This document shows, one piece after another, positions 45,718-64,000 of a DNA stretch of 64,000 nt (its first letter is position 1; each line of letters starts with the position of its first letter). The position numbers and the translations under genes were made by a program. This DNA is from Sorangium aterium (GTDB taxonomy: Bacteria; Myxococcota_A; Polyangia; Polyangiales; Polyangiaceae): the NCBI RefSeq assembly GCF_028368935.1, contig NZ_JAQNDK010000001.1:868001-932000 (forward strand). The letters are read 5' to 3'. The notes beneath the pieces are model-generated. The model saw only the letters and a list, made by a program, of their open reading frames with translations. It did no database searches and had not been told where the DNA came from.

Positions 45718-47412
45718 TCAGGGTTGGGGGGCGACGGACGAGAAAGCGTCGTTGGTCACGACGTCGAGGACCAGCTCGCGCAGCTTGTACCCCGACCCTT
45801 CGAACGAGGCGGTCAGCGCGTTCAGCACGCTCGCGTCCACCTTCCTCTCCTCGTGACCCGCTGCATACGTGTAGTACTTGCGGACGAGGCATTCCGCGAC
45901 GGAGGCGTCCGCGCTGAGGGTCAGGCCGAGCGCACGCGCGTCGGCGACCGGCTGCCCGTCGAACTCGCCGCTCGGGTCGATCGGCAGGCCGTGGTCGGTC
46001 GTGCGGAAGCGGCCGATCGCGTCGAAGGTCTCGAGCGGCAGGCCCAGCGGGTCCATGTACGAGTGGCAGCCGGCGCAGGCGGGCTTGGTCCGGTGGTTCT
46101 CGAGCCGCTGACGCTTCGTGAGGGGCTTGTCCGCGGGCGGCTCCGGGAGCTCGAGAGCGACGTCGCCGGGCGGCGGCGGGATGGGCGTGCACATGAGGGC
46201 GTCGCGCATGAACTTGCCGCGCAGGGTGGGAGAGCCCTCCTTCTGGTTCGCGAACTGCGAGAGGAAGCCCGCTTTGCTGAGGATCCCGATGCGCGGGCCG
46301 TCCGCGGGCAACGCGCGGACCTCGAAGGCGCCCGAGCCGAGGCCGGCGGTGTCGAGACCGTAGAGCTGGGCGAGGTCGCTGTTGACGACGACCTTCGTGG
46401 TCGAGAACAGGTCGAGCGCGCTCGCTTGATCGTCGAACGCGAGCACCTCCCAGGTGCCTCGCATGTCGCGGACCATCGCCGCTTGCAGCGCGGGGTTGTA
46501 CTCCGGAAAGAGCCCCGAGTCCTTTGCCTGGGTGCCGATCCGATCGAGCCGCATGTACTCCTCGGCGAAGGCGCCGACCGCCTCGCGCCCGGCAGGCGTC
46601 TCGAGCAGCCGCGTCGCCGCCGCGCGGATCCCCTCCACCGTTCCGAGCGCCCCGCTCGCGGCCTCGTCGAGCAGCTCCTGGTCCGGCAGGCTGTTCCACA
46701 AAAGGAACGCGAGCCGGGACGCCATCTCGTAGCCCGTCAAGCGAAGCGACCCGTCGGCGCTCGGCGCCCCGAGCTCCGGGCGATACAGGAAGTTCGGAGA
46801 GGTGAAGAGGGCCACGGTCGCCCAGCGGGCCCCCTCGACGGGGCTCTCGAGCTCGGTCGCGGCCTTCGCGGCGACGGCCGCGAGCCGGTCGAGCTCGGCG
46901 GCCTCGAGCGGGCGGCGCCACGCTCGAAGCCCGAGCGTCTGGAGGAAGCCACGCACGCAAGCGTCGTTCTCCGCGCCGCTGGGCGCGCAGCCGATGAACT
47001 GGTCCCGCTTCGCGCGATCCGCGAACACCGCGTCGACGGCGCTCTCGATGGCCGCGTGGTACTGCTCGACGCCTCGCTCCGAGGTCACGACGGTCGATGC
47101 GCCGATGACCGCAAAATTCCCGTTCCAGCTGTCGGCGTCGAGCTGATTGATATCGACCTCGACGCCCAACATGTCGTGCACGGCGTTGCGGAACTGCGTT
47201 CTCGTCAAACGGCGCAGCATCCCGGCCGCGGGCTGGAACGGCGGCGGGTCCGAGTCCGAGCCCGGCGACGTTCCATCTCCCCCGCTCGAGGATGCCCCAG
47301 CGCCCTCCGTCGGGTCACCCAGCGCGCCCGTGCACGCGGCCGCGAACGCGAGCGCGCAAACGGCGGCGATCTCTTTTGAGGAACGGAGCTCGTGCCACGA
47401 CGGCTTCTTCAT
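45718..47412 (-). CDS. DUF1592/DUF1588/DUF1595 family protein with c-type haem motif, lipoprotein
   Basis: 564 aa from ATG 47412. Lipoprotein-type signal (ALAFAAAC). The order is that of the family: DUF1587-like (LRRLTRTQFRNAVHDMLGVE), DUF1595 (LRAWRRPLEAAELDRLA), DUF1592 (LFTSPNFLYRPELG, LTGYEMASRLAFLLWNSLPD), DUF1588 (GILSKAGFLSQFANQKEGSP, RGKFMRDALMCTPIPPPPGD) with the haem motif CAGCHSYMDPLG (about residue 460), and DUF1585 (YYTYAAGHEE) at the end. These proteins belong to the planctomycete cytochrome group. Followed by DUF1552 on the same strand, so the two form an operon. Confidence 0.92.
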   Translation of the reverse strand: MKKPSWHELRSSKEIAAVCALAFAAACTGALGDPTEGAGASSSGGDGTSPGSDSDPPPFQPAAGMLRRLTRTQFRNAVHDMLGVEVDINQLDADSWNGNFAVIGASTVVTSERGVEQYHAAIESAVDAVFADRAKRDQFIGCAPSGAENDACVRGFLQTLGLRAWRRPLEAAELDRLAAVAAKAATELESPVEGARWATVALFTSPNFLYRPELGAPSADGSLRLTGYEMASRLAFLLWNSLPDQELLDEAASGALGTVEGIRAAATRLLETPAGREAVGAFAEEYMRLDRIGTQAKDSGLFPEYNPALQAAMVRDMRGTWEVLAFDDQASALDLFSTTKVVVNSDLAQLYGLDTAGLGSGAFEVRALPADGPRIGILSKAGFLSQFANQKEGSPTLRGKFMRDALMCTPIPPPPGDVALELPEPPADKPLTKRQRLENHRTKPACAGCHSYMDPLGLPLETFDAIGRFRTTDHGLPIDPSGEFDGQPVADARALGLTLSADASVAECLVRKYYTYAAGHEERKVDASVLNALTASFEGSGYKLRELVLDVVTNDAFSSVAPQP

Positions 47413-47888
47413 CTTGCTCTCCGATAATGCAAGGGGATGACGACGCGCGGTAACCCACATCTCGCGACCATGCCTCGGAGCAGGTGCTCGCATCGCCGAG
47501 CCAAGCTCGCCCGGCATGACGGAACCTGGAGCACCTGAGACCGGACCGGGCCGCTGTGATGACACTGCTGCGCCCGAGGAGGGGCTGAGGCATGGCCCGC
47601 CGCAACCTAGGTTACGCCGCCCCCGAAGTTGCCATCCGGCCGCCTCGCCGGGCTCCCGAGAAAATTCCAGCTGACAGCACCTAGGGCATCACGACAGCCG
47701 TCGAATCAGCAAAGCTTGTCGTGGCCTCTGGTGAATCGCCTCTGGCGAAACGCCAAGCACCATCGATCGGCAATCGCTTCCGCGACGGCCGAACGAACGG
47801 AATCGACACCGGAACCGATCAGAAGACGAAGGTCTCGGCGCGCATGACGCCCACCGAGGGCGAAGCGAAAGGATACCCCTGAGCCGAA

Positions 47889-55543: not shown

Positions 55544-57496
55544 TCAGGCGATGATCGGGGCGACGAGCCCACCTTCGAGGCTCTCATCGCCGAAGTCGTC
55601 GAGCGGGCCCCCCTGGCCGTTGGTGCACCCGACCGCCGCGCCGATCGTGTTGAGCAGCTTGTTGTTGGTGATCTTGACGTCGACGAACTGGCCGGTCTTC
55701 AGGTAGCCCGCGGCGCCGCCGGCGAGGATGTACGGGACCTTCCGGTACCCGTGGTACTTGTCGGCGTTGTCATTGAGCCACACCGCCACGCCGTGATCGA
55801 GGAGCGTCCCCGAGCCGAGCTCGTACGACGAGAGCCGATCGAGCAGGTACTTGAAGAGCCGCGCGTGGATCCGGTCGATCTGGTGGTGCAGCTCCTGAGC
55901 GCCCTCGATCGGCGGGCCCGAGGTCCCGTCGCTGTCGATGCGGTGGGAGATCTTGTGGTAGCTCTTCTGCCGCACGCCGTGGATCGTGTACTCGGTCCCG
56001 TCGTTGCCGTCACCCACCTGGAGCGTCGCCACGCGCGTGACGCCGCACGCCATCGCGAGCGCGATGATGTCCATCTGCATCCGCGTGACGGCCTCCACGT
56101 TCTCGGATTTGCCGACGTTCGGCGAGATCGCCTCCATCTCGTCGACCTGCATCTCCGGGAGCTTGCACGCGAGCGCGACCTCGAGGTCGCGGATGCTGTC
56201 GAAGTGGAGCTGTAGCCGCTCGCGATCGCTCTTGCTGATGTCCTTCCGGCTCATGAGCGCCTTCATCTCCCCGCGCACCAGGTCGTTCACGCTGGTCCGA
56301 CGCTCGACCAGCGACTGCTGGACCTCGGTGTCCACGTCGGCGAGGCCGAAGAGCTTCTGGTACGCGTTGGCCGGGTTGCGCTCGGCGGCGCGCAGCTGCT
56401 TCGGCCCGCGGTACGAGAGCACCTCGTTGATGTAGCCGGCCATCCTGCCCGCGTAGAGCGTCAGCGGCTCGACGCCCGCCGGGTTGAGCTCGGTCGCGAT
56501 GCGGTTGTCGATCGACTCACCCATCGCCAGCGACTCGTTGCCCGCCGGCTGGTCCGACACGCGCGCGGCCGTGAGGCACTGGTTGCCGCCGCCGGAGTGG
56601 CCGCACCCGTTGCCCTTGAACGCGAAATCCACGCCGCGCAGCATGATGAGCTTGCTCGCGTGGTCCTTGAGCTCGCTGACAGCGCGGTCGCTGTCCTTCT
56701 CCATCGACGCGGCGGTCAGCGGGCCTGTCGCGCTGGGCCAGAACATCTCGGGCTCGTCGTTCGTCGTCTGCGCCACGCCGTTCGCCTGGCGCATGAAGAT
56801 CGCGAAGGGCGGCACGTCGCCCGTACCGGCCGAGGCGCGCCGCGAGGCGAAGGTCTCCAGGAACGGGAGCGCCACCGTGACGCCAAAGAAATGGGGCGAC
56901 TGCAGAAACGCCTCGAGCGCCGCGCGCACGCCGGCGGCGAACGGCTCCTCGCCCTCGAAGAGCTCCTTGCCGCGGTGGAACAGCGCGAGGTACGCACCCC
57001 GCTCGTCGTCCGTGATGGGGCGCCGGAAAGCCCGCTCGCCGAACCGCTCGACGAACGCCTGCGCCCGCGCCTCCGGCTCGGCCGGCAGGTCCGCGGGCAC
57101 GAGCCGGCCGAGCTTGCCCTGGTCGGCGGTCACCATCGCCGCGAGCTCCTCCGCGGCGCGCTGGTAGTCGCTCCAGAGGCCGGGTGTCACCAGCAGCGCA
57201 GCCTCGTTGTTGTCGAACACGCCGCCGAGCGGATCGCTCGTGAAGGACGCCGAGAGACCGGGCCTGTCGTCGAGGCGCAGGAGGTCGCGCACCGTGTTCT
57301 CCCACTGCGCGTGGCTCAGCCGCGGGAACATGCTCCGCTCGGCGACCTGCGACGCCGCCGCGCCGCCCGGCGACGGGCCGTCGCCCTCGTCCTGGGCGCC
57401 CAGGGAGCCCGTGCACCCCGCGAGCAGGAGCGCCGTACCGCACAGCGCCCGCCTCCAGCGTGACAGGAGGGTCATCGAAAAAGACGGTCGGGTCAT
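55544..57496 (-). CDS. In-frame chimera of DUF1592-type N-terminus and DUF1552 protein
   Basis: 650 aa from ATG 57496. Lipoprotein signal (ALCGTALLLAGC). Residues about 45-203 are the beginning of a DUF1592-family protein (LSHAQWENTVRDLLRLDDRP, GERAFRRPITDDERGAYLAL, LQSPHFF). At about residue 203 (DNA 56880-56890), instead of the usual LYRTELGE, the sequence becomes GVTVALPFLETFASRRA, the end of a DUF1552 Tat signal. A complete DUF1552 domain then follows (FAIFMRQANGVAQT, LIMLRGVDF, AYQKLFG, HFDSIRDLEVALACKLPEM, RVATLQVGDGNDG, LLDHGVAVWLNDNADK). The rest of DUF1592/1588 and its haem site are missing. Two formerly adjacent genes seem to have been joined by a deletion that kept the frame. Confidence 0.88.
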   Translation of the reverse strand: MTRPSFSMTLLSRWRRALCGTALLLAGCTGSLGAQDEGDGPSPGGAAASQVAERSMFPRLSHAQWENTVRDLLRLDDRPGLSASFTSDPLGGVFDNNEAALLVTPGLWSDYQRAAEELAAMVTADQGKLGRLVPADLPAEPEARAQAFVERFGERAFRRPITDDERGAYLALFHRGKELFEGEEPFAAGVRAALEAFLQSPHFFGVTVALPFLETFASRRASAGTGDVPPFAIFMRQANGVAQTTNDEPEMFWPSATGPLTAASMEKDSDRAVSELKDHASKLIMLRGVDFAFKGNGCGHSGGGNQCLTAARVSDQPAGNESLAMGESIDNRIATELNPAGVEPLTLYAGRMAGYINEVLSYRGPKQLRAAERNPANAYQKLFGLADVDTEVQQSLVERRTSVNDLVRGEMKALMSRKDISKSDRERLQLHFDSIRDLEVALACKLPEMQVDEMEAISPNVGKSENVEAVTRMQMDIIALAMACGVTRVATLQVGDGNDGTEYTIHGVRQKSYHKISHRIDSDGTSGPPIEGAQELHHQIDRIHARLFKYLLDRLSSYELGSGTLLDHGVAVWLNDNADKYHGYRKVPYILAGGAAGYLKTGQFVDVKITNNKLLNTIGAAVGCTNGQGGPLDDFGDESLEGGLVAPIIA

Positions 57497-58069
57497 CCCT
57501 CTCTCCCTCTCCTGGTCAAGCGCTGGCGACCGAGCGGCCAGCTCAGCGTGGCTGTCAGTGCGCCTACCATCCAACGGAAATCGTCCTGTTCACTCCGTCA
57601 TCGAGCGCGGGTCGATCTTGCCTGTTGCATGCGGTCCGCAACCGTTCAACGCTGGACGATTCAACCACGACGAGAACTCGTGAGCTGACTCACGAACAGG
57701 ATCACGAGAGATCGCGCGGTCTCGAGGGGGCAGCCCGACAGCCGGCGACCTGCGGTGCGCCGATCCGCCGCCCGCGGCGCGCCGCCGAGCGAACGGCACA
57801 GGCGCCGAGATCCATCGAAGGACGAAGGTCTCGGTCCGCACGACGACCCACCCAAGGCGAAGGAAAAGGATACTGCTCCGGGGCAATGTGAGCGATCACA
57901 TGATCGATGTCAAACCCAATCGACCCGCCCGCGGCTGTCCTCCGGCCCGAGGAAGGACGCTGACACGGACGTGGGGCCGTGAGAACTGGAACTTTCCGGC
58001 GGCGGCGCGCATGCGGAGAGCGCCGCCACTTACTCCGAGCGACGTGAAGGCGCGCGAGGAGCGCGGAGG
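57497..58069. other. 573-base intergenic region with block shared with 47825-47935
   Basis: No gene. Holds the second copy (57821-57930) of the upstream block seen before the DUF1592 gene at 47412, including the TGTGA-N4-TCACA palindrome. Here too the nearest minus-strand gene is of DUF1592 type. Confidence 0.5.
57887..57900. promoter_or_regulatory. TGTGA-GCGA-TCACA palindrome (copy 4 of 5)
   Basis: About 390 bases upstream of the chimera gene start at 57496. The motif starts 66 bases after the shared gacgaaggtctcgg string, against 64 bases in the 47.8-kb copy. Confidence 0.5.
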
Positions 58070-62672: not shown

Positions 62673-64000
62673 ATGACCCCACCGTCTTTTTCGATGACCG
62701 GCTTGCCGCGCAGCAGGAGGGCGCTCGGCGCGGGGCTCTGCGTCACGGCGCTCCTGCTCGCGGGATGCACGGGCTCCCTGGGCGATTCGGACGGCGGCGG
62801 CGGCCCCGCGCCGGACGGCAGCGACCCACCCACCGGCGGGGTGGCGCGCGGCATCGACATGCCAGGGGCGCCGCAGTTCCACCGGTTCGTGCGTCTCACG
62901 AACTCGCAGTGGGCGCGCAGCGTGCAGGTGGTTCTGAATCTCGCCGATCCTTCGTCGCTGTCCGACGGGTTCGAGAAGCCTGTCTCGGGCATCACGGACT
63001 TCACGAACAACGAGCACCTGCTGAGCGTGAACCAGCGCTCGTGGAGCGACTACCAATCGGCGGCGGAGGCGCTCGCCGAGGAGGTGACGGATTCGGATGC
63101 GGCGCTCGCCAGGGTCTACCCGGATAAGGACGAGACCGGCTTCATCGAAACCGTGGGGCGCCGTGCGTATCGCCGTCCGCTGACGGACGACGAGATCGCC
63201 AGGTACTCCGAGCTTTTCGAGACCGGCGCGGCGATGTCCGGCACGAAGAGCACGTTCGCCAAGGGCGCGCAGCTCGTGATCCGGACGATGCTCCAGTCGC
63301 CGCACTTCCTCTACCGCACGGAGCTCGGCGAAGATCGCAAGCCGCTCGATGGTTACGAGATCGCGGCGAAGCTCTCGCTGTGGCTGCGCGACGCCGCGCC
63401 CAGCGACGAGCTGCTCGACGAGGCGCCCACGCTCACGACGCCGGAAGCGATCGCCGCGGTCGCCAAGACCATGCTGGAGGAGCCCACCGCGGTCAAGGGC
63501 ATGCGGTACTTCCACAGCGAGCTGCTCCACTTCGATCGCTACGCCACGATCAGCAAGCTCGGCGTGCCGAGCTACAACGAATCGTTGAACGCGGAGTACG
63601 AGGAGAGCGCGTACCTGTTCTTCGACAAGATCTTCACCGAGGGTCTCGGAGTCAAGGAGATCCTCACGTCCACCAAGGGCTTCGTGGGGCCGGGGATGGC
63701 GAGCCTCTACGGCCTGGCGCCGAGCGGGAGCCGCATGGTGGAGCAAGACCTCGGTCCCGATCGCGTCGGCTTCTTCTCGCAGCTCCCCTACCTGACGCTG
63801 AACGCCCTGAACGATGAGTCGGACTCGATCCACCGCGGCGTCAGCATCAACCTCGACATGCTGTGCGCGCCGCTCGGCGCGCCGGCCCCCAACATTCCGC
63901 CGGTCCCGCCGCTCGAGCCCGGGCAGACGAACCGTCAACGCATCACGCGGCTCACCTCCGGCTGCGGCGGCACGTGCCACAACCAGCTCATCAACCCCGT
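62673..64000 (+). CDS. DUF1592-family protein, 3' end cut by window, with CX3CH motif
   Basis: Open to the window end (442 codons visible). Of tandem ATGs at 62670 and 62673 the second has the better spacing from AGGAGG (62662-62667) and matches the start of the chimera at 57496 (both begin MT-PSFSMT and share TALLLAGCTGSLG). Family order: LTNSQWARSVQVVLNL, VGRRAYRRPLTDDEIARYSE, LQSPHFLYRTELGE, YEIAAKLSLWLRDAAPSDEL, GFFSQLPYLTLNALNDESDS, RGVSINLDMLCAPLGAPAPN. The haem-type motif reads CGGTCHN, with three rather than two residues between the cysteines. A DUF1552 gene may follow outside the window. Confidence 0.9.
   Translation, partial: MTPPSFSMTGLPRSRRALGAGLCVTALLLAGCTGSLGDSDGGGGPAPDGSDPPTGGVARGIDMPGAPQFHRFVRLTNSQWARSVQVVLNLADPSSLSDGFEKPVSGITDFTNNEHLLSVNQRSWSDYQSAAEALAEEVTDSDAALARVYPDKDETGFIETVGRRAYRRPLTDDEIARYSELFETGAAMSGTKSTFAKGAQLVIRTMLQSPHFLYRTELGEDRKPLDGYEIAAKLSLWLRDAAPSDELLDEAPTLTTPEAIAAVAKTMLEEPTAVKGMRYFHSELLHFDRYATISKLGVPSYNESLNAEYEESAYLFFDKIFTEGLGVKEILTSTKGFVGPGMASLYGLAPSGSRMVEQDLGPDRVGFFSQLPYLTLNALNDESDSIHRGVSINLDMLCAPLGAPAPNIPPVPPLEPGQTNRQRITRLTSGCGGTCHNQLINP

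Follow-up and report, generated by a model that had tools for sequence, protein, structure and literature searches.

A single open reading frame of Sorangium aterium, a soil bacterium that digests plant fibre, runs from the start of a DUF1592-family lipoprotein directly into a complete DUF1552 domain. Comparison with intact gene pairs strongly supports, as far as sequences can tell, that one deletion joined two adjacent genes, and we consider it likely that the fusion arose recently by a one-off mutation of a spare gene copy and is probably dispensable, and that it does not constitute a new kind of protein. The gene lies in a window of 64,000 nucleotides, that is the whole stretch of DNA analysed here, which covers C1:868001-932000 of the genome; its parts and the elements upstream of it are compiled in Table 1. 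The RBS-like sequence GGAGAGGGAGAGAGGG precedes its start codon.

Table 1. Features of the chimeric gene and its upstream region (positions refer to the window)
Feature	Position	Strand	Remarks
Chimeric CDS	55544..57496	-	650 aa + stop; ATG at 57496, stop at 55544; open frame
Lipoprotein-type signal peptide, residues 1-28, lipobox LAGC (Cys28)	57413..57496	-	Sequence reading; intact orthologues start alike
PF07626 (DUF1587/PSD3), residues 59-123	57128..57322	-	Pfam E=2.9e-17
PF07637 (DUF1595/PSD5), residues 145-203	56888..57064	-	Pfam E=4.3e-17
Deletion junction CCCCATTTC / TTTGGCGTC	56887..56888	-	1,103 bp missing relative to 8/8 intact Sorangium pairs
Residues 204-226, remnant of the hydrophobic stretch of the DUF1552 signal (GVTVALPFLETF)	56819..56887	-	Predicted disordered; linker
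PF07586 (DUF1552/HXXSHH), residues 233-548	55853..56800	-	Pfam E=2.5e-58
~150-bp dispersed upstream element	57784..57933	-	Common to other regulon genes
Operator-like palindrome ATGTGATCGCTCACATT	57885..57901	-	389 bp upstream of the chimera ATG

The five-domain chain PF07626-PF07637-PF07631-PF07627-PF07624 is present in full in an intact relative within the window (45721-47565). The chimera retains PF07626 and PF07637 only: the Pfam search returned no PF07631 (DUF1592), PF07627 (DUF1588) or PF07624 (DUF1585) in it, and the junction cuts PF07637 at profile position 57 of 62. The observation and the coordinates of the original prediction are confirmed. It had taken residues 1-203 for the start of a DUF1592-type lipoprotein, which is correct at the level of the protein family, although the segment missing from the chimera includes the DUF1592 domain proper. 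The switch that was placed at the phrase LQSPHFF indeed occurs between residues 203 and 204 (LQSPHF/FGVTV), and the DUF1552 domain behind it is complete as claimed, the PF07586 match covering profile positions 3-306 of 307 with 198.5 bits as compared to a gathering cut-off of 30. Absent from the chimera is the twin-arginine start M-I-[ST]-RRRVLRGL, which is found in all eight intact Sorangium copies. The haem-type motif of DUF1588 has also disappeared, together with the deleted domain. The earlier statement that a haem domain is missing holds insofar as DUF1588 is lost; however, the motif in the chimera's clade is CX3CH and not CXXCH, and the designation 'haem domain' therefore needs caution. 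The CX3CH motif (CGxxCH) of DUF1588 was observed in about 27 myxobacterial proteins (e.g. L061:7196-8890 on the minus strand, L087:4286-5971 and the window gene at 62673), and other DUF1592-family proteins of the same genome contain CXXCH.

Relative to each of eight intact pairs, which come from six Sorangium genomes, the breakpoint is identical, i.e. blunt, at a codon boundary and with 0 bp of microhomology. An intact paralogous pair resides in the same genome at C1:218819-221886 and exhibits 87.7% (N half) and 89.5% (C half) DNA identity to the chimera. Its matches abut at consecutive bases of the chimera, whereas 1,103 bp separate the same matches in the paralogue. As both halves match one paralogous pair and the gap between the matches amounts to exactly 1,103 bp, the chimera is not a product of chance. 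The parent genes overlap by ATGA (where read), and a loss of 1,103 bp consequently deprived the first gene of its final ~64% along with the stop codon, and the second gene of its initial 11 codons. That is, the DUF1592, DUF1588 (with CX3CH) and DUF1585 domains were lost along with the start of the DUF1552 protein and its twin-arginine motif. The idea that a single deletion joined adjacent genes is thereby corroborated, since the same gap and breakpoint emerge with eight pairs, two of which are located in related clusters of other strains. Microhomology is absent, as neither side of the breakpoint has a base in common with the flank that was lost, and the vicinity contains no useful repeat; both were rejected as the cause of the deletion. 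The genome encodes a Ku gene, which makes blunt end joining possible, and the ends were probably rejoined by this route.

The original prediction also cited pairs of the same two families in the window, which were described correctly as separate genes but are not the parents: the pairs at 44-47 kb and 62 kb were rejected, as their identity to the chimera is far lower. Judged from the sequence comparison, the parents are a former DUF1592-family/DUF1552 pair at the chimera's own position. Separate acquisition of the signal peptide from the neighbour at 62.6 kb, which shows 77% DNA identity over 148 bp, was rejected as well, because the So ce26 copy at 12.5 Mb starts alike (MTPPSFSMTGLPRWRRALGAG).

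Six intact copies, including C1:218819, have flanking DNA in common and define a core locus, outside of which lie the copies at 3.30 Mb in So0157-2 and at 12.53 Mb in So ce26. The So0157-2 3.30-Mb locus comprises further genes of the chimera's cluster as well as the chimera's upstream DNA, and the latter is also present at the So ce26 12.53-Mb locus. Sharing cluster genes and upstream DNA with these off-core copies, the chimera derives, by its genomic context, from a second, accessory pair. In trees calculated for each half, the chimera falls into the same clade of copies, the nearest sister being weakly supported. The N- and C-part trees give slightly different sisters, again with weak support, and recombination between copies may therefore have preceded the deletion. 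Within So0157-2, the pairs at 3.30 Mb (accessory) and 7.23 Mb (core) are 95% identical over 3.06 kb and thus closer to each other than to the copies of other strains, which points to gene conversion or recent copying. A separate observation concerns the DUF1552 gene at C4:768691-769742, whose profile match falls into two stretches, positions 1-52 and positions 56-288, that lie in different open frames; this gene is possibly frameshifted.

A query of 90 residues spanning the junction produced a continuous match in this genome alone among six Sorangium genomes, and the junction was not found in the other five. Scanning 84,980 species genomes yielded 25 loci, and no fusion was among them. The search for the same junction in other genomes, as had been proposed originally, was also carried out in 317 genomes of the class and revealed no fusion across the junction apart from the one in the chimera's own genome; here, the best few candidates per genome were scored at E<=1e-35, and a diverged fusion could be missed. 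Four matches of this search that run over the junction all turned out to be intact pairs upon inspection; the possible further fusions in G239, G098 and G121 were rejected on this ground. Nor do DUF1552 proteins always come with this N-terminal region within the searched set, as the genes are separate in 8/8 other Sorangium pairs. With nothing found in its favour in this set, a standing architecture of DUF1552 proteins with a DUF1587/1595 N-terminus appears extremely improbable. A different concern is that the real genome possesses an intact pair from which 1,103 bp were dropped in assembly or sequencing. The highly similar paralogue in the genome would be compatible with such an artefact, and the junction was studied in the assembled sequence; however, the junction 37-mer occurs exclusively in loci covering this place and not in the paralogue, the missing segment is present nowhere else in the assembly, including the other contigs, above 89% identity, the breakpoints have no direct repeat able to collapse, the join is exact and in frame, and the assembly consists of 7 contigs (13.47 Mb). 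We regard this artefact as quite improbable, and misassembly as such is unlikely, given that the junction is unique, blunt and free of repeats.

For structure prediction, the halves were modelled apart, using residues 204-650 and the intact DUF1592 protein. The model of residues 204-650 (pLDDT 82, pTM 0.82) becomes ordered at about residue 227 and has a pLDDT of about 30 over its first 20 residues. Structure prediction at the joint, which had been suggested at the outset, thus places the junction in a disordered stretch (C half modelled alone), and since residues 204-226 are disordered in the model, the joint is predicted to represent a flexible linker. The DUF1552 half resembles the carrageenan sulfatase 9ihk (Z 17.4, rmsd 4.2, 280 residues) and PafA (5tj3; Z 17.0, rmsd 4.1, 284 residues), the best Foldseek E being 2.7e-6. 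DUF1552 is predicted to adopt the fold of the alkaline phosphatase/sulfatase superfamily; the predicted fold is alike, but the identity is about 9%. Behind its first predicted strand, the model has RQANG and lacks the usual Asp of the superfamily, and the fold likeness alone implies no activity. Sequence searches of solved structures yielded no convincing relative. Residues H311, S314, H315, H334, D338 and H379 (C-part numbering) are invariant in all 26 aligned rows including the chimera, which keeps the HxxSH motif; the last SHH position is Arg in 26/26 rows. The intact DUF1592 protein is modelled as an uninterrupted helical body that begins at residue 57 and reaches the C-terminus (pLDDT 87, pTM 0.85), for which a fold search gave no PDB match at E<=0.001. 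As the junction cuts through this body, the N-terminal DUF1587/1595 stub may fold poorly alone. The twin-arginine motif being gone and the lipobox being present, lipoprotein anchoring would replace Tat export, with altered chemistry. A literature search on DUF1552/DUF1592 retrieved almost nothing.

The chimera is embedded in a xylan-degradation cluster, which extends from 39722 to beyond 64000 of the window, encodes two GH10 proteins, GH62, GH43-CBM6, GH16 and esterase-like proteins and includes three DUF1592/DUF1552 loci. The ~150-bp element upstream of the chimera recurs 12 times in the genome, and its core is the palindrome ATGTGANCGNTCACAWT. Allowing one mismatch, this core has 62 strand-wise matches genome-wide (43 distinct sites) as compared to 0 for the reversed control, and the same contrast was seen in all six Sorangium genomes. 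Further sites in the window are located at 39.4, 47.9, 48.2 and 59.8 kb. Ten genes beside sites include three GH43 genes and genes for arabinofuranosidase B, an alpha-galactosidase-like protein, an aldose epimerase, a carbohydrate esterase and a sugar-binding protein; the palindrome thus precedes genes for hemicellulases and sugar uptake. A site is present no more than 3.5 kb upstream in 6 of 30 DUF1552 loci, where 0.34 would be expected (binomial p 9e-7, neighbouring loci not being fully independent). Two sites precede the intact accessory copy of So ce26, whereas the core-locus copies have none. The operator core ATGTGANCGNTCACAWT was not found in a literature search. The form TGnnAnCGnTnnCA presumably points to a LacI-family regulator, and the palindrome looks like a putative LacI-family operator of a sugar regulon. 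On the basis of these sites, the putative operator links part of the DUF1592/DUF1552 family to this regulon.

Pairwise comparison of the chimera with the closest intact relatives gave dN/dS values of 0.2-0.3 for both halves. In a three-taxon relative-rate test of the whole gene, the chimera branch yielded 0.25-0.31 as compared to 0.24-0.35 for its sisters, and the intervals of the difference include zero. Otherwise invariant columns are changed at 1/70 positions in the N part and 2/248 in the C part, which is similar in intact copies. By these measures, the chimera is without signs of decay, and its dN/dS being equal to that of its sisters, either the deletion is young relative to the branch or constraint on the protein persists. 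The probability that the frame was kept by chance is one in three, and the intact pair is retained elsewhere in the genome. Constraint on both halves would also be expected if the fusion were a functional, selected gene, namely one encoding a DUF1552 enzyme that is lipid-anchored and no longer coupled to the haem-type partner, and that is maintained because tethering to the membrane or absence of the partner confers a benefit. The frame that is intact over 650 codons, the conserved residues and the regulon operator that were kept, and the position of the joint, which should leave the DUF1552 domain undisturbed, are in line with this. However, a very recent deletion predicts equal constraint, the fusion occurs in one genome only, and its stub is cut from a continuous, confidently predicted structure. 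Moreover, the DUF1552 parent has a twin-arginine motif and so may need folding in the cytoplasm, which a Sec lipoprotein signal would bypass. On balance, selection of the fusion appears rather unlikely, and its more specific version, in which a selected, sulfatase-like DUF1552 enzyme anchored in the membrane would serve the hemicellulose regulon independently of the haem-type partner, is if anything slightly more doubtful.

We therefore return to a recent deletion in a spare gene copy as the preferred reading. The ancestral locus would have comprised a DUF1587-1595-1592-1588-1585 lipoprotein gene overlapping by ATGA with a twin-arginine DUF1552 gene. One 1,103-bp deletion, as indicated by the comparison and probably sealed by blunt end joining, would have left one open frame, which, judged by the conserved operator, would still be transcribed from the upstream region of the sugar regulon. 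Any protein made from it would be exported by means of the first gene's lipoprotein signal and would consist of a truncated helical DUF1587/1595 stub, a flexible linker of ~20 residues and the complete DUF1552 domain, without the haem-type domains. Owing to the intact pair at the other locus and many paralogues, the deletion was probably tolerated, and the DUF1552 half may still be active.

The event itself is ordinary, i.e. a small deletion affecting a gene pair that is redundant, in a genome with about thirty DUF1592/DUF1552 pairs, and its value is that of a natural experiment. With the haem-type half lost and DUF1552 kept in frame, the function of the fusion on xylan would tell whether DUF1552 needs its partner. 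Should the fusion be a selected enzyme, the halves of a widespread, uncharacterised pair could act apart. The predicted sulfatase/phosphatase fold and the common operator provide a concrete starting point for the function of the family, and as by-products, the regulon link and the DUF1552 fold assignment are more useful than the fusion itself.

In Planctomycetes and Verrucomicrobia, genes of the PSCyt3 type adjoin one family of unknown genes and are found near polysaccharide genes, their function being unknown according to the available part of PMC5615132. The domain vocabulary (PSD2-5, PSCyt3) is the same as that of the chimera; unlike the chimera, the genes described in this part are separate, and no fusion is reported there. 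The intact Sorangium pairs (C1:218819-221886, So ce26 at 12.53 Mb and So0157-2 at 3.30 and 7.23 Mb) share 74-85% protein identity with the N part and 79-91% with the C part of the chimera, and gene order, strand and breakpoint landmarks are the same; they differ in consisting of two genes and in possessing DUF1592, DUF1588 (CX3CH), DUF1585 and the twin-arginine start. Deletions between co-oriented neighbours are generally able to join the start of an upstream gene in frame to the body of the gene downstream. Observed here are two neighbouring genes that are separate in close relatives, one breakpoint and a single open frame. The chimera has the same layout as other fusions born by deletion, does not differ from them in principle and represents one more case.
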